Shown: positions 2,300 to 44,278, counted from the first letter of the stretch. The stretch: DNA of 64,000 nucleotides from Saprospiraceae bacterium (GCA_020630955.1 JAHDIE010000001.1:35911-99910), one strand, 5' to 3'. Notes: generated by a model not told the origin, from the sequence alone. Numbers and translations: made by a program.

Positions 2300-3400
2300 A
2301 TGATCAAGCCACTCAATTATGTTTTAATAATTGTAGTGGCTTTTTCATGTCAAGAAAACAATAATTCAATCAAGACAAGTACTTCCCCACCCAATTCTGA
2401 AAACATAGAATCATGGGAAACGATCCGTGGACAAACCATGGGTACCACCTACAATATTAAATTTAACACCAAGGGTAAAGCATTTAATAATTTAAAAAGA
2501 ACCATTGACTCTACATTGGTAAGCATCAATGCTGCCGTATCAACTTATGAACCGGAGTCCATCATTTCAAACTTTAATAAGACCACAGTTCAAGAAGTTA
2601 CACTTAGTGGAAAATCCTTACTCGATCGGCATTTTATTAATAATTATATGAGCTCCAAACTTGTATATTCAGACACTGATGGAGCATTTGATGCAACGGT
2701 TATGCCTCTGGTTAATTATTGGGGCTTTGGTTATACATCCAAAAAACCTGTTACAAAAATTGATAGTAATCATGTGTCGCAACTTCAACAGCTTGTGGGA
2801 ATGAATAAGATAATGGACCACAATGATGCAGAAGATAAGAGCATCAACAATTTCACACTTAGAAAACTACAATCAACTATTAGCCTTGACTTCAGTGGTA
2901 TTGCTAAAGGTTATGGAGTAGATATCATTGCTCAATTACTAGATGATCATGATATAGAAACATACATGGTAGAAATTGGAGGTGAAGTAAAGGTTGCCAC
3001 TGGGAATAACAGTTCGAAAATATGGAAAGTAGGTATCAATGAACCGCTAAAGGAATCATCCCTTTATTCAATGAACTCAATTGTCAATCCAAAAAATATG
3101 GCAATGGCAACATCTGGAAATTACAGAAACTATTACGAAACAAATGATCTAGAGTATGGTCATGAAATAAACCCCGTCACTGGATTTCCGATTCAAACAG
3201 ACATTTTTTCTGCTTCGGTAATCCATGAAAGTTGCCAATTTGCTGATGCCTATGCTACAGCATTTATGATTATGGGGCTACAAAAATCTTTAGCCTTAGT
3301 TAATGCAAGGCCAGATCTTGAAGCTTGTTTTATCATTAAAAAAAACGACGAATTGGTTAATGTTTATAGTTATGGCTTTGAACAATATGTTATAGAATAA
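2300..3400 (+). CDS. apbE: FAD:protein FMN transferase (ApbE-like lipoprotein)
   Basis: Lipoprotein signal MIKPLNYVLIIVVAFSC; ETIRGQTMGTTYNIKF, LDFSGIAKGYGVDIIAQ, MVEIGGEVKV, EINPVTGFPIQTD are ApbE motifs. Track start at 2207 is upstream of the likely ATG (2300). Confidence 0.9.
   Translation: MIKPLNYVLIIVVAFSCQENNNSIKTSTSPPNSENIESWETIRGQTMGTTYNIKFNTKGKAFNNLKRTIDSTLVSINAAVSTYEPESIISNFNKTTVQEVTLSGKSLLDRHFINNYMSSKLVYSDTDGAFDATVMPLVNYWGFGYTSKKPVTKIDSNHVSQLQQLVGMNKIMDHNDAEDKSINNFTLRKLQSTISLDFSGIAKGYGVDIIAQLLDDHDIETYMVEIGGEVKVATGNNSSKIWKVGINEPLKESSLYSMNSIVNPKNMAMATSGNYRNYYETNDLEYGHEINPVTGFPIQTDIFSASVIHESCQFADAYATAFMIMGLQKSLALVNARPDLEACFIIKKNDELVNVYSYGFEQYVIE
2306..2345 (+). terminator. terminator-like hairpin overlapping the 5' end of apbE
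   Basis: AAGCCACT-CAATT ... AATTG-t-AGTGGCTT followed by TTT; 13 paired bases with a 1-nt bulge, just after the stop of 1285-2283. Confidence 0.5.
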
Positions 3401-3404
3401 GCCA

Positions 3405-4085
3405 TCACTCTGATATACTTCTTCTTATTCCTAGTTCTCCTCCATATGACCATAAGTGCTCTTTAAAGTCAGTGTTCACAAGATTGGTCAAATGATGTTT
3501 ATAATTGAATTGGAAAAACAAACAGGTTTCCTCAGATAAATAATAATTTAAACCAACAGCCACATTTCCCGTAAGGTGAAAAGTTTTAAAACCAGTATTT
3601 GATGGATTCCTTTCATAAGTTGTTTCCTCTTCCTCGTCTTGTATTTTAACAACTCGATTGGTTGCATAATAAGTTGGAGAAATACCCATCTCAACAAATG
3701 GTTTCAGAGTATTATCATTGGAAAACTCATAACGCAAAGTGACCGGTATTTCGAGAAATAAATAATCATAAAAAAATTGAATCCTGGTCATTTCTCCAGT
3801 AGAAAAAGTCAATACTCTTTCTTGGGTTTTATATCCAAGACTTGCTAATCTTAGGCCGGTTTTTAAATTCACTTTTGATGCTATTCGTAAATTAAAATTA
3901 AAACCTAAATGATAATTAGACTTTGGAGTCTCCGTTTCGTTTCGAACCATCTCAACAGCGCTTCCATTATCATCGATGATTCTAAAAGAGACATTGATCC
4001 CTCCTAAAACATCAACAGATGATTTAATCTGGCCAAAACTTATATTCCCTACGAAAAGAAAAAGTACGATTACAATTCTACACAT
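3405..4085 (-). CDS. outer membrane beta-barrel (porin/PorT-like) family protein
   Basis: Signal peptide; alternating beta-strand pattern (HLGFNFNLRIASKVNLKTGLRLASLGY..., GNVAVGLNYYLSEETCLFFQFNYKH). Confidence 0.7.
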   Translation of the reverse strand: MCRIVIVLFLFVGNISFGQIKSSVDVLGGINVSFRIIDDNGSAVEMVRNETETPKSNYHLGFNFNLRIASKVNLKTGLRLASLGYKTQERVLTFSTGEMTRIQFFYDYLFLEIPVTLRYEFSNDNTLKPFVEMGISPTYYATNRVVKIQDEEEETTYERNPSNTGFKTFHLTGNVAVGLNYYLSEETCLFFQFNYKHHLTNLVNTDFKEHLWSYGGELGIRRSISE

Positions 4086-4272
4086 GATGCAAAATAAATA
4101 AGATGAAGCGAAATTTTAGAATTCTACAAACTTATTTGAGTTAAATACCAAATAACTTTGTTCTATAGGATCTTTGCATTGCAAATGAGAAATTTAGTAA
4201 CTTATGGTTTAATCAGACTCATTGTAAACAAACAAGAACCTTCAATTATTAACAAAATTTCGACAACAAACC

Positions 4273-5070
4273 ATGCGAATACTACCCTTGATTTTAATAT
4301 TGTGCCTTTCTGCTTGCATTGGTTCAGAAGAACTGAAAGAATCAAATAGTGATTCTGAAAAACAAAATCAAATGAGAAAACTTGGTCTGATAGGTGGAAC
4401 TTCGTGGCATTCGACAATAGAATACTACCAATACATTAACGAATCGGTCAATAATCATTTCGGAAATAACACCAATCCTCCATTGATGGTTTATACAATG
4501 AATCAAGCCATGGTTCACAAGTTCCAGGTAGAGAATAATTGGGAAGGCATTGCCAACATGCTGATAGAGGCCGGTAGTAATCTACAAAAAGCAGGAGCAG
4601 AAAAAGTCATGTTTTGTGCCAATACACCTCACAAAGTCTATGATGATGTTCAACGAAAATTAGAAATTCCGATCATACATATTGCAGATGCCACAGCAGA
4701 AATCATTAAAAAACAAAATGTTCATAAAGTTGGCTTTCTCGGGACCAAATATACGATGACAGAAAACTTCATTACAGAGCGTATTACCGATCAAGGAGTT
4801 GAAGTAATAAAACCAATCCAACCAGAGGAAATTGAAGAATTACATCGAATTATAATAGAAGAATTAACTTATGGAAAAATTCTGCCTTCTTCAAAAGAAT
4901 ATGTTCTCAGTATCATTCAAGAATTTATTGATCAAGGAGCAAGCGGAGTTGTATTAGCTTGCACTGAGTTTCCGTTAATGATCGATGAAGAAGATGTACC
5001 CATCTCTATATTTAATACTACAAAGATTCATGCCGACGCTGGTGTAAAATTTATTTTGAAAGATATTTAA
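4273..5070 (+). CDS. aspartate/glutamate racemase family protein with putative lipoprotein signal
   Basis: RKLGLIGGTSWHSTIEYYQYIN; both catalytic-type cysteines present (MFCANTPHKV and VLACTEFPLM). N-terminus MRILPLILILCLSAC has a lipobox. Alternative internal ATG at 4372. Confidence 0.85.
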   Translation: MRILPLILILCLSACIGSEELKESNSDSEKQNQMRKLGLIGGTSWHSTIEYYQYINESVNNHFGNNTNPPLMVYTMNQAMVHKFQVENNWEGIANMLIEAGSNLQKAGAEKVMFCANTPHKVYDDVQRKLEIPIIHIADATAEIIKKQNVHKVGFLGTKYTMTENFITERITDQGVEVIKPIQPEEIEELHRIIIEELTYGKILPSSKEYVLSIIQEFIDQGASGVVLACTEFPLMIDEEDVPISIFNTTKIHADAGVKFILKDI

Positions 5071-5110
5071 TTATAAAAAAGTTTTATCTTTTATCACAGA
5101 CAGTCATGAT

Positions 5111-6721
5111 ATGAAAAGTTTTAAGCTTCAAAACGAACCAATTTCAAATAAATGCATTTTAATTTTATTGACAATTCCATTCTTGGTTTCAATTCTTTCT
5201 TGCTCGAATCAAACTGAAGTACAAAATAATAAACACAATGTTTTATTTATTTCTATAGATGACTTAAGAACAAGTTTAGGCGTTTATGGAGACAGCATTG
5301 TTATTTCTCCTAATATAGACCAACTTGCATCCGAGGGATTTACATTTAGAGAAAGCTTTTGTCAATCTGCAGTATGTGCACCATCAAGAGCAAGTTTGAT
5401 GACTGGACTTAGACCGGATTCTACACGAGTTTGGCATCTTGGTGATCAATTCAGAAAAATCAATCCATCTACAGTAACCATGCCGCAGCATTTTTCAAAG
5501 TTTGGGTATCACACGGTCAACATTGGTAAAATTTTTCATAACTATATGCCAGATTCTATTTCTTGGGATGAACCTGATCTCAGGCCTTCACGCTATCTAA
5601 AACAAGATTGGCTAAAGCGAGATGGTGAAACTTTTTACATAAGTCCTGAAGTAAATAAATCACAAGAAATAAAAAGGGATTCGTTGTTAAAGCTTAAGCC
5701 AATTAGATACGCTGATGGTTGGAACACGGGTCCCGCTTGGGAGGCAGCAGATGTCCATGATACCATGTATTATGATGGAGCACAAACAAAGTTGGCAAAA
5801 CAAACAATATCAAGATTAGCGCAAATTGAACAGCCATTCTATATGGGCTTGGGTTTCTTTAGACCTCATCTTCCGTTTACTGTTCCTAAAAAATATTGGG
5901 ACCTATACAATCCAAATCAAATCCCTCTTCCTATCAATCCACAGATTCCAAATAAGGCCCCAATTCAGGCTATGAATTCAATGTATGAACTTAGGCACTA
6001 CGATGATTTTGGGCACATTACTCACCCTACAGGAAATTATAAACTAAGCGAAGATACAATTCGAACATTGCGGCATGGCTATTATGCTAGCATTAGTTAC
6101 GTAGATGCGCTAATTGGAGAATTGGTTGAACACTTGAAAGATTTAGACATTTATGAAAATACCATTATTGTACTTTGGGGTGATCATGGCTATAAACTTG
6201 GAGATCACAACAGTTGGGGAAAAATGACAAATTATAATATCGATCTTAAAGTACCAATTATCATCCGATACCCGAATCAACCCAATCGAGGAGGAGAAAC
6301 TTTTGGTATAACAGAACTTGTAGACTTATTCCCTACTCTTTGCGATATCGCCAAGATTGACAGTCCCGAGTATATGCAAGGGCAAAGCATGCTTCCGTTA
6401 ATGAAAAATCCGAAGCAAGAATGGAAAACTGCAGCATTTAGTCAGTTTCACAGAAGACCTAAAGTTTCTGCAGATGGGAAAAGATATATGGGATATTCCA
6501 TGAATACAAAAACAGATCACTATATAGAATGGTATACTTGGGATCATACGACTGGAACCAAAGGTGAACTCCAAAATATAGAATTATATGACAGATTATC
6601 TGACCCCCACGAAGTTATAAATATTGCCTACCAAAAAAACATGTTCGAAAAGGTTGAAGAGTTATCCAACCAATTGAAAAAAGGATGGATTGAAGCAAAA
6701 GCCAAAGTAAAAAATGAATAA
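5111..6721 (+). CDS. sulfatase, iduronate-2-sulfatase-like
   Basis: NVLFISIDDLRTSLGVYGD, formylglycine-type motif CAPSRASLMTGLRPDSTRVW, LWGDHGYKLGDHNSWGKMTNY. Confidence 0.92.
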   Translation: MKSFKLQNEPISNKCILILLTIPFLVSILSCSNQTEVQNNKHNVLFISIDDLRTSLGVYGDSIVISPNIDQLASEGFTFRESFCQSAVCAPSRASLMTGLRPDSTRVWHLGDQFRKINPSTVTMPQHFSKFGYHTVNIGKIFHNYMPDSISWDEPDLRPSRYLKQDWLKRDGETFYISPEVNKSQEIKRDSLLKLKPIRYADGWNTGPAWEAADVHDTMYYDGAQTKLAKQTISRLAQIEQPFYMGLGFFRPHLPFTVPKKYWDLYNPNQIPLPINPQIPNKAPIQAMNSMYELRHYDDFGHITHPTGNYKLSEDTIRTLRHGYYASISYVDALIGELVEHLKDLDIYENTIIVLWGDHGYKLGDHNSWGKMTNYNIDLKVPIIIRYPNQPNRGGETFGITELVDLFPTLCDIAKIDSPEYMQGQSMLPLMKNPKQEWKTAAFSQFHRRPKVSADGKRYMGYSMNTKTDHYIEWYTWDHTTGTKGELQNIELYDRLSDPHEVINIAYQKNMFEKVEELSNQLKKGWIEAKAKVKNE

Positions 6722-37588: not shown

Positions 37589-38518
37589 TCATTCAGTAAG
37601 GTTTTCTGAACTTTTGAACCATTCGTTAAAATTAACGTCCGAAAGCTCATTAAGTTCAACATATTTATAGTCTAATATCCTTTCCTTAGGATACAAGGTA
37701 AAAATAATTACTTTATCCTTTTTTAAATCTTTTGCTTTGACATCTTTACCAATGTAATAAGAGTTGTTAATACCAGAAGCCAAAAATCTAACACCCTCAA
37801 CACTTTCTTTTTCTGAACCTTTATCCCAACCAGTATCACCAACCACTATTATTACCTCAACTCCCCTCTCTTTTAAATCTACTAGTTTTGGATAGATCGT
37901 AAATTCAAAATATGAATCTACTGAATCACAATTCATTGCATAGTGATCACAAATACCATTGCTTTTGAAGTTTTGGATTCCGTCAATATTTTTAAAAATT
38001 TGGTGATGCATTAATAAAACATAATGAGAGGCATTTGTTATTGTATCACAGGCCTCAACAATCATTTTATATTGGGCATCTAGATTCTCACAATCACTTG
38101 GATTCAAGTTGGTATTTAATACAGAAATCACCAAGTTTTTGAAGCTATAGGTGTAATAATCGGGTCGACCAGTTGCTTTGAAATAAAAATCCAAATTGTT
38201 ATCCCTATAATCGTGATTACCTAAAACAAAATGCGTATTTGGATTTCTCAAATCAAATAAATCATCCAAATAACTCATTGTCTTTGGTTGCAGCGTTGTA
38301 CTTGCACAAATATCTCCACCTAACCAAAATCCGTCATAATCATCAAGATTAACTAATTCTAAGCGTTTATCAACTTTATCTCCTCTTCCGTAAGACCAAT
38401 CATAAGTGTGTCCAACAAATAAAAAATTATATTCATCCTTCTCAGATTGACATCCTTGCAAAGCAAAAGCCAACAGACAGATAATCCATCCTAAATTTTT
38501 AATTTGTAACTTAAGCAT
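37589..38518 (-). CDS. lipoprotein metallophosphoesterase (calcineurin-like, atypical motifs)
   Basis: Lipobox ALQGC; WLGGDICAS, FVLGNHDYRDN, YVLLMHHQIFK, IIVVGDTGWDKG. Confidence 0.75.
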   Translation of the reverse strand: MLKLQIKNLGWIICLLAFALQGCQSEKDEYNFLFVGHTYDWSYGRGDKVDKRLELVNLDDYDGFWLGGDICASTTLQPKTMSYLDDLFDLRNPNTHFVLGNHDYRDNNLDFYFKATGRPDYYTYSFKNLVISVLNTNLNPSDCENLDAQYKMIVEACDTITNASHYVLLMHHQIFKNIDGIQNFKSNGICDHYAMNCDSVDSYFEFTIYPKLVDLKERGVEVIIVVGDTGWDKGSEKESVEGVRFLASGINNSYYIGKDVKAKDLKKDKVIIFTLYPKERILDYKYVELNELSDVNFNEWFKSSENLTE

Positions 38519-39138
38519 TAGTGTAAATAAAATTTCATACCAGAAACATATTTAGAATTTTTTGTCATTCGATAAGGTAAGCCTTGCATACACTCATTGG
38601 CTAAGGTCTCATTTCCTTGATCATATTTTATTTCTAAAATAATCGCTTCATCTGTATTTGACACCGATGTTACTTTACCATTCATCATATGGATATACTG
38701 CAAATCTTGATCAATCGTTGCACGAATGAGTTCATCTGAAGAAACAAGATAACTTCGATTGTATCTAACAATGATGTATGGAAACAAATGATTGGAAACT
38801 AGATGACTAAGTTCAGGTGCTCCACAACTGAGATTAAAATTTTGAAGAGGAGTATTTACTTTGCGTCCTAACTGACTTTGCTTTATCTTCTTCTCTAAAA
38901 TAGGTTGCTTAATCTGCTCCAGACTTTTTCCATACCATCTCACCCTATATTTTGTTCTATCTCCTATGCCTAAAAGATTATCATTGTAAGAGGTAAAATT
39001 GACATCATCATAATAAATACTATTTACAAATCTATTTGGAAATGCTTCTTTAAAGCCAAGTGAATTACTCATTAATTCATGATAAACTTGATCATAAACA
39101 TTATTCTCAATGCGGTATTTTCTTTCATATCTCATCAC
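38518..39138 (-). CDS. VTC domain polyphosphate polymerase
   Basis: RYERKYRIENNVY, RFVNSIYYDDVNFTSYNDNLLGIGDRTKYRVRWYG, ILEKKIKQSQLGRKV, AIILEIKYD. Confidence 0.88.
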   Translation of the reverse strand: MMRYERKYRIENNVYDQVYHELMSNSLGFKEAFPNRFVNSIYYDDVNFTSYNDNLLGIGDRTKYRVRWYGKSLEQIKQPILEKKIKQSQLGRKVNTPLQNFNLSCGAPELSHLVSNHLFPYIIVRYNRSYLVSSDELIRATIDQDLQYIHMMNGKVTSVSNTDEAIILEIKYDQGNETLANECMQGLPYRMTKNSKYVSGMKFYLH

Positions 39139-41591
39139 CCTCTTTCCGTTTTGCCATTGACTGAGATAGATATACCTTGTTCAATTAGATACAGTTGATC
39201 AATATTTTTATAATTAAATTGATCCAAATCTAGGATGGTTGGACCTTCATCATTGCTCCTCACTTCAATTCCTCTTTTAACATTTTCGTTCCAAAATTTG
39301 ATGAATTTCGCCTTAGACTCATCAGATATGTGAATGCTATGAAAGGAGTCAAAAACATTAACATCCCAAGCATAAACCTCCGCACCATTGCTAAAATTAA
39401 AAACACGGTTCAAAACATTTCGAAAAACTGAGGAAGTTACTTGTAAGGCACCAGACTCTATTGAAACAGCATTCCTACCTGCAGACAACAATTCAATCCT
39501 ATCCAATTTTAAATTTGAATATTTTGACTTTATCGCTGTACCAGAAATTTTATCAAATTTTGAATTTATAAGCTCTACCTCTCCATAATTGATAGCCAAA
39601 CAAATTTGTGACTTAAGATTAATAAAATGACAGTTATCCATCACCACTTTGCTTCGATGAATATTGATTCCTGCTTTTGTAGTGATTCGATTAGATTTAA
39701 AATTTGAAAGACCAACAAATCGACAATTCATAAATTGGCTTAGATCTTTGGTTTTAGAAATAAAAAGCCCTGCATGATTTTGACTTTCACTATAAAAAAC
39801 CACAGGGTGTTGCTTACTACCCAATGCTTTTATGGGTGAATATGAAATTAAACTGGAATTATTGATAAATTCAATTGTGGTACCTGCTGAGATTTTAAGA
39901 ATCCTACCTTCGGGAATTACTACTGGGAAAGCCAATTTATGATGGCCTGCTGAAACAATAATTTCGTCAGCCAAATTTTGAACATAAGGTAAGGATAAAA
40001 ATCGATCTAAGTTTCCCCCTAAAGGTTTTGGATTATCAATTGACAAATTGCTATTAAGCAATTTTGTTTTATGCAATTGATTTAATCCCAAAGTCCGATA
40101 ATAGATGTAATCAATATCTGTACTTTGCTTATGCAAATATGTTCTTACTGGTACATTTTTATTATATGATTCTAATACAATGGCTGTATCTAGTTTGTTT
40201 GTTATTTCTGTTTCATTTCCGAATCCTATTATTTCTAACGGAAAATAATGGAAAGAATGTAAAGCAATACTTTGTTTAGAATCCTCGACCCTGTATGCTT
40301 TCAAAGATAGATTTGATTTTCCTTGAATTTTTTTATGAGTAAAAAATGCTTTACCAAAAATTGTTTCCCAATTGGGCTTAAAATCTTTGTACAATGGATC
40401 TGATTGAATAAATGCTACTCTACTGGCCAAGGCAGTAGCATATTCATTTCTAAATTGATTCAGATAATTAGGATTTGTAAATTTCTCCAAATAAGTCATG
40501 TACAAACCATATAATGATTCATCTTGAAACATATGATAACGATAAACATCACTTTTTGCATAGGCGGCTTCTTTTGATGTTCTATTATTAAATGCTTCAC
40601 CATACGCTTCCCAATCAGCATTAACATTTGGCAAATGATCTCCAAAACAATCAAAGGCAATGGGTTCCAATTTACCAGTAAGAACATTGTAATAAAAACG
40701 AATATTGGTAAACTGCGCTGCATGCCATGCATGTGATAAATCAAGGAGTGCAAAATATTTGGCCATTAGATCCAAGTCAAAGACTTCAGAAGCTGAACTT
40801 TTGTCATGGATAAAATCATTAAGTAAAGTTTGTGCAACTTTGAATGTTTCCAAAAAATCTTGATCATCTCGATTTTCTTTATTAAACAACTCAATGTGCG
40901 AAGACTCTATCCATGGAAATGGCTGTAATTTTTTATGAACATTTTCCCAATACCCGTCATCGCTATGTTTTAATATTGGACCAAGTTCTCGACCATTTTC
41001 TTTGAGCAATTGATTTTCAAAATGGTGTTCGAAGGCATAAACACCCAGGTTCTTACCATTGAGTTGGACATTGATAAAATCATAATTTGGTACAACAATT
41101 CCTTCTTTGCGGAACAGCTCATGCATTAACCATTCTGCTGTATGTGACCTTGCCTTGCTGTTATGAATAGAGAAAGTGTTCATTCCTTTCCATTCATCAT
41201 TATCTTTAAGTATAATGCGGAATGACCACCTTTCTCCTGACAAATGATCCAAAAGATCACCTTTAAGTCTTAACTTACAAGCAAACTCTTTTCCATCAAT
41301 CTTAATATCTGCATCAACCAGATCATCTTTTGATGAAAAAAGCAATCCTTTTTCTAATGCTTCATTTCTTTTTTGAATAAGTTTTTTAAACGCATCACTA
41401 TTTACAGCAATATTTAGATTTGATCCTTTAAACTTACTCACACTGAGATCAGTCTCAGCACTTTCCTTTTGATCAAGTATTTTATTTTTAGTCTTCAATG
41501 AAAATGCAAAAAATCCTAATAGCATCAAGGCTATCAATAAGGTAATCCATTTGCCGAAAGGCTGCCTATATTCTTTCCTGCTAATCTTCAC
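39135..41591 (-). CDS. CotH-like kinase with N-terminal TM and C-terminal right-handed beta-helix region
   Basis: CotH-type segments ADIKIDGKEFACKLRLKGDLLDHL..WSFRIILKD, MNTFSIHNSKARSHTAEWLMHELFRKEGI, FINVQLNGKNLGVYAFEHHFENQLL, PIAFDCFGDHLP. GTG start at 41591 gives a GTGA overlap with the upstream stop; the track start at 41654 would overlap by 67 nt. Confidence 0.82.
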   Translation of the reverse strand: MKISRKEYRQPFGKWITLLIALMLLGFFAFSLKTKNKILDQKESAETDLSVSKFKGSNLNIAVNSDAFKKLIQKRNEALEKGLLFSSKDDLVDADIKIDGKEFACKLRLKGDLLDHLSGERWSFRIILKDNDEWKGMNTFSIHNSKARSHTAEWLMHELFRKEGIVVPNYDFINVQLNGKNLGVYAFEHHFENQLLKENGRELGPILKHSDDGYWENVHKKLQPFPWIESSHIELFNKENRDDQDFLETFKVAQTLLNDFIHDKSSASEVFDLDLMAKYFALLDLSHAWHAAQFTNIRFYYNVLTGKLEPIAFDCFGDHLPNVNADWEAYGEAFNNRTSKEAAYAKSDVYRYHMFQDESLYGLYMTYLEKFTNPNYLNQFRNEYATALASRVAFIQSDPLYKDFKPNWETIFGKAFFTHKKIQGKSNLSLKAYRVEDSKQSIALHSFHYFPLEIIGFGNETEITNKLDTAIVLESYNKNVPVRTYLHKQSTDIDYIYYRTLGLNQLHKTKLLNSNLSIDNPKPLGGNLDRFLSLPYVQNLADEIIVSAGHHKLAFPVVIPEGRILKISAGTTIEFINNSSLISYSPIKALGSKQHPVVFYSESQNHAGLFISKTKDLSQFMNCRFVGLSNFKSNRITTKAGINIHRSKVVMDNCHFINLKSQICLAINYGEVELINSKFDKISGTAIKSKYSNLKLDRIELLSAGRNAVSIESGALQVTSSVFRNVLNRVFNFSNGAEVYAWDVNVFDSFHSIHISDESKAKFIKFWNENVKRGIEVRSNDEGPTILDLDQFNYKNIDQLYLIEQGISISVNGKTERG

Positions 41592-42490
41592 AACAGATGA
41601 TCTTTGATAAAAAATAATGAGGAAAAACAAACAATACAACCAAAGCAAATCCACATCATATTGTTGTAGACTTTTGATAGAAAACTTTCATCTACCATTG
41701 CCTTCATTTTTCTATATTTTGACCGCTGATCTACTGAGAGGTTTGGGAAATTCTTTGAAAGGTTGGTTTTTATATTGTCATTCAATTCAGTCATCAGTAT
41801 TCTTTCTTCATCGCTTGCCTCCGTAAATTTAATTTCATTCAATTCTAATTCCAGCTCCGCGTATTCTTGAAAAGGAAATGAATTATGATTCACCTCATCC
41901 AAGGTGATGGTTGCGATGCTTTCTCCTTTGTTATCAGAAATATAAATTCTACTTCGTCTTTGTTTCAACTTAACACTCTCTTGAATCTCTTCTGGACGGA
42001 GGCCAAAATCGGCTAAATGGTAGCGCATTCTTTCAGTATCAGAACCATTCAGCAAGCGTAACAAAGGGTGCCGGATAAACAGGTCATCAAAATTCTTTTT
42101 TCGATCAACATCAAATTTGATCTCATTTCTTATCACTTTGTCTTTTGAATATGGCGTTTTCAATTGAACCAACTCTTTGAGTAAAATATCATCTTTAAAT
42201 CTTTTACGATAGCGAAGACTTATCTCTGCTTCTGCAAATGACAGATTAGGCTCATCAAAATATTGGTCAATAAAAAGCTCAACTGACTCTTGACCTCGCA
42301 AGTTCATATCATTAAATGTAAAATGCTCAAGTGCGTAATTAGATTTAATAAAACTCCAAAGGGCTGAAACTTCAGATAGCGGAATATCCAACTTGTACTC
42401 ACTTTCCAATCGCCCACTTTGACCTGAAGTAACACTAATTTGAAAATATAATGAGCACACCAATGAAAATATGGATAGCGCTTTATTCAA
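41588..42490 (-). CDS. CYTH-like triphosphate tunnel protein with N-terminal signal peptide and C-terminal TM
   Basis: ExExK-type LESEYKLDI; ISLRYRKRF; NEIKFDVD; KLKQRRSRIYI; ATITLDEVN; YAELELELNE. C-terminal TM MMWICFGCIVCFSSLFFI. TTG start in the track. Confidence 0.65.
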   Translation of the reverse strand: MNKALSIFSLVCSLYFQISVTSGQSGRLESEYKLDIPLSEVSALWSFIKSNYALEHFTFNDMNLRGQESVELFIDQYFDEPNLSFAEAEISLRYRKRFKDDILLKELVQLKTPYSKDKVIRNEIKFDVDRKKNFDDLFIRHPLLRLLNGSDTERMRYHLADFGLRPEEIQESVKLKQRRSRIYISDNKGESIATITLDEVNHNSFPFQEYAELELELNEIKFTEASDEERILMTELNDNIKTNLSKNFPNLSVDQRSKYRKMKAMVDESFLSKVYNNMMWICFGCIVCFSSLFFIKDHLL

Positions 42491-43164
42491 CCTATCATGT
42501 TCTTATTATCAACAAAAGAGAACTCTAAGGCTGGATCTTCCCCCAACAAGGTATTTTTTGTTTGACTAAGTTGATCAAATTTGGTTGCGTTGACGACATA
42601 GGTCATAAATAACTTCCCGTTATCCTGACTCATTCTTCTCAATTCAACGTGATCAAAATTATTAGACATCGCGATGTTTACTTTTTCTTCAGATATTAAA
42701 TTCGAAGCAATATTGACAACCATCTGATTGTTCAAGTCGAAAGATTTTTTATTTCGGAGCCTCGCTTGTAAGTACAAAAGTGAAAGAATCAAAACAAAAG
42801 CAATCAATGTAATTGCTGGTTGATTGGCTCCCATCCCTAAACCTATACCTATGACAAGAAAAAGAAAGGTTAATTCTTCTGGCTCTTTAATTGCTGCACG
42901 AAATCTGACAATGGATAAAGCTCCAACCAATCCCAAAGATAAGGCAATACTAGATTTAACAATGTAGATGATCAACATTGTACTGAGTGCTAATAGCATG
43001 AAATTATTTGAAAACTGTAATCTATTGCTTACCGACTGTCCAAAGCGACGATAGTATATGGACAAAATCCAAGACAAAAGTGCAGCGAGCAAGGCATTTA
43101 GAATGAAATTGCTGAGATCAAGCACTTGCAAGTTGTAATCGAGTAGTAGGTCTTGAATATTCAT
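42487..43164 (-). CDS. DUF4956 domain-containing membrane protein
   Basis: LSLGLVGALSIVRFRAAIKEPEELTFLFLVIGIGLGMGANQPAITLIAFVLIL is the DUF4956 signature region. Confidence 0.9.
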   Translation of the reverse strand: MNIQDLLLDYNLQVLDLSNFILNALLAALLSWILSIYYRRFGQSVSNRLQFSNNFMLLALSTMLIIYIVKSSIALSLGLVGALSIVRFRAAIKEPEELTFLFLVIGIGLGMGANQPAITLIAFVLILSLLYLQARLRNKKSFDLNNQMVVNIASNLISEEKVNIAMSNNFDHVELRRMSQDNGKLFMTYVVNATKFDQLSQTKNTLLGEDPALEFSFVDNKNMIG

Positions 43165-43369
43165 AAAATAGCTTTACTTAAGGCCATAAAGATATTCAAT
43201 AATTTACCGTATGCTGTCTAAATTGAGGATCTTAATTGAGCTAAATGCAAAAATTTAGGCTTGAGAAAGATGAATAAAAAGGCGATAAGTTTTGCAACTC
43301 ACCGCCCTAAGCTTTCCAATCAAATTTTGCTATGCAATAAATGATTGCTCTCATTAAAACTCAAACCAA

Positions 43370-44278
43370 TTATTTTCTTGAATATACCACTTGTTGCTTG
43401 TGTACTTTATCTCCTTGTTCTATAATAAACCAATAGATGCCAGCCGCTTCGTCCACAAAAGTGTATTGAACTTGCGCCAAATCTTTAAATTCTATTAATT
43501 GCTCTTTATGAATTATTGAACCATTGGTATCCATAACATAAAAGAAAACTTCTTCTTCAGTACTGGATGAATAGGTTAAATTGGCAACACCATTTGTTGG
43601 ATTTGGATAAACAGACAATTGGTTTGGTGCCTCAGACTCATAAGTTAAATCGAGTTTCGGCTTTTCACAAACTTCATAACTAAGCGTGTTATTAATTTGT
43701 CCACCAATTGTTACAAGCTCTTTGTATAATTGACCATTTCTTTCAAATTCCATCTCAACTTGCTGTCCTACTTGACATGCAGAGATTTCAGCTTGAAGGT
43801 CACAAAATGTACCAACTGCTACAGTATTAAAATTTATAATAACATCTCCGAGCATTAGACTTGAAGCTTGAGCTGGACTGGTTCTTACAATTTTCTCTAC
43901 AGTAACCCCAGTCATATCATCAACAGAATAAACACCTACTCCAAAGTAAGGCTTCATGGTGGTCTCTATTTTTTCGCAAAAGAATTCTGCCTCATGAAAA
44001 TTTGAAATATTGTTAGAATCGAAATAGACTCTGGTTACTTCCATTCCCTTGTAAAATGTCGCATGAACATTGATGCGTTTTTTATCCTGGTGATTTAGTA
44101 AAAGCTGTTGAATATCAATATTCATGGCCTGACTACCTTCATAAAGTCTGTCTGTTAAAATTTCATTTTTTTCGTTATAAACTTTTACTGTGACTTTTTC
44201 ATATTTTGATGATTCTTGTCCAGTACCTACATTAACCATGAACAATAACATCATGGCACACACAATCATGTTTCTCAT
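43370..44278 (-). CDS. secreted PDZ-domain protein with T9SS C-terminal sorting domain
   Basis: Signal peptide; PDZ YFGVGVYSVDDMTGVTVEKIVRTSPAQASSLMLGDVIINFN; C-terminal QLSVYPNPTNGVANLTY..AGIYWFIIEQGDKVHKQQVVYSRK. Confidence 0.85.
   Translation of the reverse strand: MRNMIVCAMMLLFMVNVGTGQESSKYEKVTVKVYNEKNEILTDRLYEGSQAMNIDIQQLLLNHQDKKRINVHATFYKGMEVTRVYFDSNNISNFHEAEFFCEKIETTMKPYFGVGVYSVDDMTGVTVEKIVRTSPAQASSLMLGDVIINFNTVAVGTFCDLQAEISACQVGQQVEMEFERNGQLYKELVTIGGQINNTLSYEVCEKPKLDLTYESEAPNQLSVYPNPTNGVANLTYSSSTEEEVFFYVMDTNGSIIHKEQLIEFKDLAQVQYTFVDEAAGIYWFIIEQGDKVHKQQVVYSRK

Follow-up and report, generated by a model that had tools for sequence, protein, structure and literature searches.

What does an operon do that encodes a VTC polyphosphate-polymerase domain together with a membrane protein and three partners predicted to face the envelope? 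In the 64,000-nucleotide stretch of Saprospirales bacterium DNA analyzed here (the window), we observe such an operon at 37589-43164 on the minus strand, with five ORFs, all on that strand, in the order DUF4956, CYTH, CotH, VTC, and metallophosphoesterase (Table 1). The initial annotation had described a five-gene operon whose junctions overlap by 1-4 nt, and both the ORFs and the junction sequences bear this out. The DUF4956 stop and the CYTH start share TTGA (42490-42487, 4 nt), the CYTH/CotH and CotH/VTC junctions are GTGA at 41591-41588 and 39138-39135 (4 nt each), and the VTC/metallophosphoesterase junction is TAATG at 38518 (1 nt). Three of the genes use GTG or TTG as start codon. CotH has an alternative in-frame GTG upstream at 41654; the start at 41591 is preferred, as it fits the overlap and the relatives. 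Relatives keep the stop/start overlaps, as in L069 and L109 (in L109, DUF4956 1016-1693, CYTH 1690-2589, CotH 2586-5051, and VTC 5048-5674). Pfam agrees with the family labels first given to the five genes, all of which exceed the curated cut-offs; the beta-helix match of the window CotH (Beta_helix E 0.0038) falls below its cut-off, which several relatives exceed. The gene directly upstream (43370-44278, minus strand) encodes a PDZ domain and a T9SS sorting tail without a protease domain. A phage or defence origin of the operon was rejected, with no match to PHROGs or PADLOC at E 1e-3.

Table 1. Features of the operon and of its upstream boundary, in window coordinates
Feature	Position	Strand	Details	Pfam match
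DUF4956 protein	42487..43164	-	225 aa	PF16316 3.5e-14, 53.3 vs cut-off 30.6 bits
CYTH / triphosphate-tunnel protein	41588..42490	-	300 aa, TTG start	PF01928 4.1e-7
CotH-type kinase-fold protein	39135..41591	-	818 aa	PF08757 3.4e-8, 33.8 vs cut-off 23.8 bits
His290 codon of CotH	40722..40724	-	column of catalytic Asp (B. subtilis CotH D228)	
Asn296 codon of CotH	40704..40706	-	conserved catalytic-loop Asn	
Asp314 codon of CotH	40650..40652	-	kept; equivalent of CotH D251, DFG-like Asp	
VTC polyphosphate-polymerase domain	38518..39138	-	206 aa, GTG start	PF09359 6e-26, 91.8 vs cut-off 23 bits
Metallophosphoesterase lipoprotein	37589..38518	-	309 aa, lipobox LQGC, Cys23	PF00149 1.1e-4, 23.2 vs cut-off 21.5 bits
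Terminator-like hairpin of gene upstream	43279..43308	-	marks operon 5' boundary	

The gene set recurs well beyond the window. Of 248 genomes of the Saprospirales order, 116 carry DUF4956 and 94 carry VTC, with 92 carrying the two together, an association that far exceeds chance (Fisher p = 2.5e-42, kinship ignored). A DUF4956 gene lies within 1 kb of 78 of the order's 101 VTC genes and within 5 kb of 12 more (90/101), always on the same strand. Of 14 control genomes, three have DUF4956, and these same three have VTC. In 12 spaced VTC/DUF4956 cases, including the window, the intervening gene is a CotH with a beta-helix, which we term type B, and 4 of the 12 add CYTH. The order DUF4956-CotH-VTC is kept in 12/12 contiguous operons of the order (the window and 11 other sampled genomes). 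Besides the window's own genome, type-B CotH is found in 2 of 345 genomes of the phylum, both times inside DUF4956-CotH-VTC operons. Outside Bacteroidota, the triad occurs with other gene orders in Bacillota and Actinomycetota: GT2-CotH-VTC-DUF4956-GT4 in Pseudobutyrivibrio, and VTC-DUF4956-CotH in Planococcus (plasmid locus L187) and Nonomuraea. The Corynebacterium glutamicum genome gives matches to all three families, DUF4956, VTC, and CotH. A tblastn search for VTC on plasmids returned none. The constant core is DUF4956 and VTC, usually with CotH. The neighborhood survey upholds the recurrence on which the initial annotation had made its reading depend; of its five-gene unit this core stands, and both the phosphatase and CYTH, the latter present in 4/12 of the order's contiguous operons, are add-ons.

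The remaining VTC genes of the order mostly lie at contig ends or are orphans adjoining glycosyltransferases and RibBA. In all six orphan-VTC genomes examined (L141, L142, L144-L147), DUF4956-CotH is located elsewhere, and in five of these the same phosphoesterase family divergently adjoins it. In such split-type genomes a conserved protein of ~225 aa with weak Pfam matches only lies beside DUF4956-CotH, mostly adjoining the phosphoesterase (L142-L147, e.g. L144 5817-6494). The neighbors of orphan VTC genes are themselves conserved in size and order (L082-L087, L100), with RibBA and two glycosyltransferases in L082. At L120 (3485-12415), one DUF4956-CYTH pair is flanked by two CotH-VTC pairs on opposite strands, an arrangement that suggests duplication of part of the module.

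The VTC protein has neither a signal peptide nor a TM segment by hydropathy and inspection, and is predicted to be a stand-alone cytosolic catalytic domain. Its profile matches yeast Vtc2/3/4 (Vtc4 3g3q, 8.7e-10), and the full set of tunnel residues is present, with R3, E5, K7, R61, K63, R65, R67, E82, K84, K93, R128, E169, K171, R190, K193, and K196 invariant in 15 relatives (alignment A4). The yeast VTC complex (Vtc4/Vtc1) is alike in its tunnel domain, its catalytic residues, and its coupling to a membrane domain. Here, however, the parts are separate proteins and there is no SPX domain, and DUF4956 is likened to Vtc1 by membrane coupling alone. PPK1 is also encoded in the genome of the window, so that VTC would be a second polyphosphate enzyme, which counts against reading the operon as a polyphosphate module.

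The CYTH protein carries the second tunnel. A signal peptide, an extracytoplasmic domain, and a C-terminal TM helix with a positive tail are common to 30 relatives, and from this arrangement the domain should face outside. Residues invariant in 30/30 relatives (alignment A6) are E29xE31xK33, R93/R95/R97, K111, R121-E123-K125, R179/R181, D198, E212/E214/E216, and K258. No PDB relative was found by sequence, and a fold search was used instead: the AF2 model (pLDDT 91.5) finds TTM enzymes at E values as low as 3e-8, including E. coli YgiF with tripolyphosphate (VIA Z 18.0, 3.5 Å over 199 residues). With the ExExK motif, the tunnel Arg/Lys/Glu residues, and the TTM barrel all present, the protein is predicted to be a secreted, membrane-anchored triphosphate-tunnel enzyme. 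The tunnel residues, whose absence from VTC or CYTH would have told against the original reading, are complete in both proteins. The inorganic triphosphatases YgiF, AtTTM3, and SaTTM share the fold and the active-site residues; they are cytosolic as far as described, and the window CYTH is set apart from them by its signal peptide and C-terminal TM anchor. An alignment scan of 84,980 species gave 32 CYTH loci, 31 in Bacteroidota records and one in a bin labelled Parcubacteria. Among the 22 loci of close relatives, readable neighbors include CotH in 21/21, DUF4956 in 19/21, and VTC in 19/20; the exceptions include L127, which is CYTH-CotH only, and L125, without DUF4956 upstream. Nine distant relatives (L129-L134, L136-L138) have neither VTC nor DUF4956 adjoining. 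At L138 (4740-8386) the gene after a distant secreted CYTH encodes a purple-acid-phosphatase-like protein, again pairing a tunnel enzyme with a metallophosphatase.

The metallophosphoesterase of the window operon keeps GGD69, GN101H102D103, H171, and D228 (alignment A5), and its DxH and GHxH metal-ligand motifs are replaced by GHTYD and GDTG. The family has 19 strong matches in the order (E < 1e-40), 11 of which are linked to the module, 10 within about 4 kb of DUF4956 and one beside CotH-VTC-CotH. Hydropathy and inspection support the topology proposed at the outset, with a cytosolic VTC, a polytopic DUF4956, and CYTH, CotH, and the lipoprotein phosphatase outside.

The CotH-type protein has an N-terminal signal anchor, a CotH domain at about 108-373, and a C-terminal right-handed beta-helix, and its profile matches Bacillus CotH 5jd9 at 2.1e-5. 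In all 45 type-B proteins the first Asp column holds His and the second Asp, and the distant type-B proteins at L164 and L165 also have His in the catalytic column. N296 and D314 are invariant in alignment A1, and the distant relative at L165 is without the Asn. The catalytic Asp is kept in other CotH proteins of the same genomes and in the triads of Bacillota and Actinomycetota; as far as sampled, His in its place appears specific to the type-B subfamily. Residues 224 and 247 of the 5jd9 chain fall on the two Asp columns with an offset of 4 inferred from the numbering, and the alignment of His to the Asp of neighboring CotH proteins stands independently of this offset. The CotH at L075/L113 is broken by a run of N and was omitted from length comparisons. 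Compared with the Bacillus spore-coat kinase (5jd9/5jda), type-B proteins share the kinase fold, the Asn, and the DFG-like Asp, and differ in the His for Asp228 in all, the membrane anchor, and the beta-helix C-terminus. In B. subtilis CotH, D228Q and D251A are both inactive (PMC7821199). The His might act as an altered general base, might itself be phosphorylated, or might mark a dead enzyme, and the window protein may be inactive. Because the catalytic Asp is replaced, we call it a CotH-fold protein rather than a CotH kinase, and the phosphorylation in the envelope first suggested for this operon is not to be assumed.

The DUF4956 protein is predicted to have ~5 TM helices by hydropathy and, in its AF2 model (pLDDT 78, pTM 0.54), a C-terminal beta-alpha-beta-beta-alpha-beta domain of the ACT/ferredoxin-like type, with a conserved GLVGALSIVRFRAAIKEPEEL stretch (alignment A7). 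It has no PDB relative by sequence. In a fold search against the PDB, the C-terminal domain hit widespread folds of the ferredoxin-like type, EF-G among them, at Z about 10, and the TM part had no match among solved structures. MgtC is not among these matches, which excludes nothing; by sequence, the MgtC family PF02308 scores E 0.025 and 15.4 bits, below its cut-off of 31.4.

Clues to the role of DUF4956 come mainly from its neighbors. Twenty DUF4956 loci have no VTC close by, and in 17 of these DUF4956 is followed by a HlyD-like adaptor plus an OEP-like protein; CotH is nearby in 4 of the 17. Six further loci, outside the 20, served as seeds (L088, L148, L150, L151, L153, and L155). The same two genes follow at L182, where DUF4956 is called by Pfam only. 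An adaptor-like gene also precedes VTC in five VTC-DUF4956 loci. One of them, L093, is HlyD-VTC-DUF4956-TolC, with TolC identified by PF02321 (2.7e-29), and Hymenobacter has the order MFP (adaptor)-DUF4956-TolC. The adaptors preceding VTC-DUF4956 are above the Pfam HlyD cut-off in L093, weak in L094, and collectively recognized as HlyD when profiles are compared (85.8 %). The OEP-like label is tentative, with a Pfam E of 0.011 for one protein and none for the others, and by profile these proteins do not match the TolC protein of L093. The HlyD- and OEP-like neighbors are the main argument, by association, for a translocation role, and the operons without VTC suggest that DUF4956 functions in export; since it also occurs without VTC, its cargo may differ from the VTC product. 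A second DUF4956 in the genome of the window (L088, contig C5, 8682-11699) heads a row of three, with a HlyD-like adaptor next and an OEP-like protein last, without VTC, and is preceded by a lamin-tail/T9SS-type protein.

The anatomy, conserved residues, predicted topology, and genomic association are well supported, and the operon is a real, recurrent, uncharacterized module of the envelope that presents a known yet unexplained gene set in a new form. From family membership, residues, and neighborhoods we infer polyphosphate synthesis, its export, and a role for CotH. We tentatively favor a module of the envelope in which polyphosphate is synthesized on the inner membrane's inner face, moved across, and then put to use or trimmed on the outside. 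VTC would polymerize phosphate from ATP in the cytosol, as its family and residues suggest. DUF4956 would then serve as conduit or docking partner in moving the chain through the membrane, a role suggested by the gene neighborhoods and comparable to that of the transmembrane part of yeast VTC; in the sister operons it may pass its cargo on to a HlyD/TolC-like path. On the outer side, the anchored CotH/beta-helix protein, with His replacing the catalytic Asp, might act on a surface polymer or protein, CYTH might bind, shorten, or hydrolyze tri- or polyphosphate, and the lipoprotein phosphoesterase might remove phosphate. The lost motifs of the phosphoesterase and the unmatched TM part of the DUF4956 model weigh against this reading. 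A bolder version, which we consider quite unlikely, is that polyphosphate is sent across as an extracytoplasmic phosphate and energy source where ATP is absent, with VTC and DUF4956 making and translocating it, CYTH processing it, and the His-type CotH transferring phosphate from it to a polymer or protein of the surface, possibly via phospho-His. The operon offers candidate parts for a phosphate donor to extracytoplasmic kinase-fold proteins and for bacterial polyphosphate transport across membranes; the export partners of DUF4956 and the conserved Asp-to-His change in CotH are new clues.

The set could instead be accessory to a surface polysaccharide, with DUF4956, VTC, and CotH tuning how an exopolysaccharide is assembled or retained (Pel in Gram-positives, here a different polymer) and phosphate chemistry serving as decoration or regulation. 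Streptococci, clostridia, and bifidobacteria have the CotH-PPP(VTC)-DUF4956 triad next to pel (PMC7112168). Deleting the DUF4956-like SIR_1592 of S. intermedius raises Pel and lowers aggregation, and loss of the CotH gene SIR_1594 lowers both (PMC12345266). The Pseudobutyrivibrio and Planococcus triads are surrounded by glycosyltransferases. Type-B CotH carries a beta-helix, a domain common in carbohydrate-active proteins. However, PelG is found in 0/18 genomes with the Bacteroidota form (type-B or split-type) and was matched in one control genome, and no glycosyltransferase lies inside the window operon or most relatives' operons, so we regard this explanation as somewhat unlikely. The S. intermedius VTC mutant still aggregated, with no aggregation or Pel phenotype reported (PMC12345266), which counts against the polyphosphate-making module that we favor. 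The 2025 authors report having seen this arrangement nowhere but at Pel loci (PMC12345266), a statement contradicted by the triad being widespread outside them. The initial annotation knew of no assigned function for the set; the pel clusters of streptococci, with deletion phenotypes for the DUF4956 and CotH genes, give it a published context. The families are known and recur together, as that annotation said.

An unlikely alternative on the present evidence is a phosphate-homeostasis or signaling module without export, in which DUF4956 is an MgtC-like regulator (4-5 TM helices and ACT), the polyphosphate made by VTC stays in the cytosol, and type-B CotH serves as a pseudokinase scaffold. The weak MgtC similarity, the report of MgtC and ACT domains in the homologue from S. 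intermedius (PMC12345266), the TM helices and beta-alpha-beta-beta-alpha-beta domain of the model, and the replaced CotH Asp all point this way, but three secreted partners, including a tunnel enzyme with an intact active site, are ill-suited to a purely cytosolic role, and the DUF4956-HlyD-OEP-like operons indicate transport. VTC and CYTH might also act on another triphosphate, such as a nucleotide, thiamine, or an RNA 5' end. CYTH substrates are varied, E. coli YgiF being specific for tripolyphosphate and inactive on long polyphosphate (PMC3440374), and a bacterial VTC assay was not found in the open-access literature searched. Against this, the VTC residues match those of yeast Vtc4 and DUF4956 is the constant membrane partner of VTC, making a substrate other than polyphosphate very improbable.

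Comparison with the known loci shows what is particular to the Bacteroidota form. The pel clusters of Gram-positive bacteria (PMC7112168), among them that of S. intermedius with SIR_1592-1594 (PMC12345266), likewise have the three families adjoining, with a secreted CotH, a cytosolic VTC, and a membrane protein with an ACT-type cytosolic domain. Here, in contrast, there are no pel genes, the order DUF4956-(CYTH)-CotH-VTC is fixed, CotH is fused to a beta-helix and has His for Asp, and a secreted CYTH and a lipoprotein phosphoesterase are added. VTC and CotH genes also occur together in C. perfringens NELoc-2, whose VTC-DUF4956('tubulin')-CotH is apparently the same triad, with 'tubulin' taken as DUF4956 by size and position alone (PMC2879425). 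NELoc-2 differs from the window operon in its gene order, the absence of CYTH, and its glycosyltransferase neighbors, and its layout is that of the Planococcus locus.
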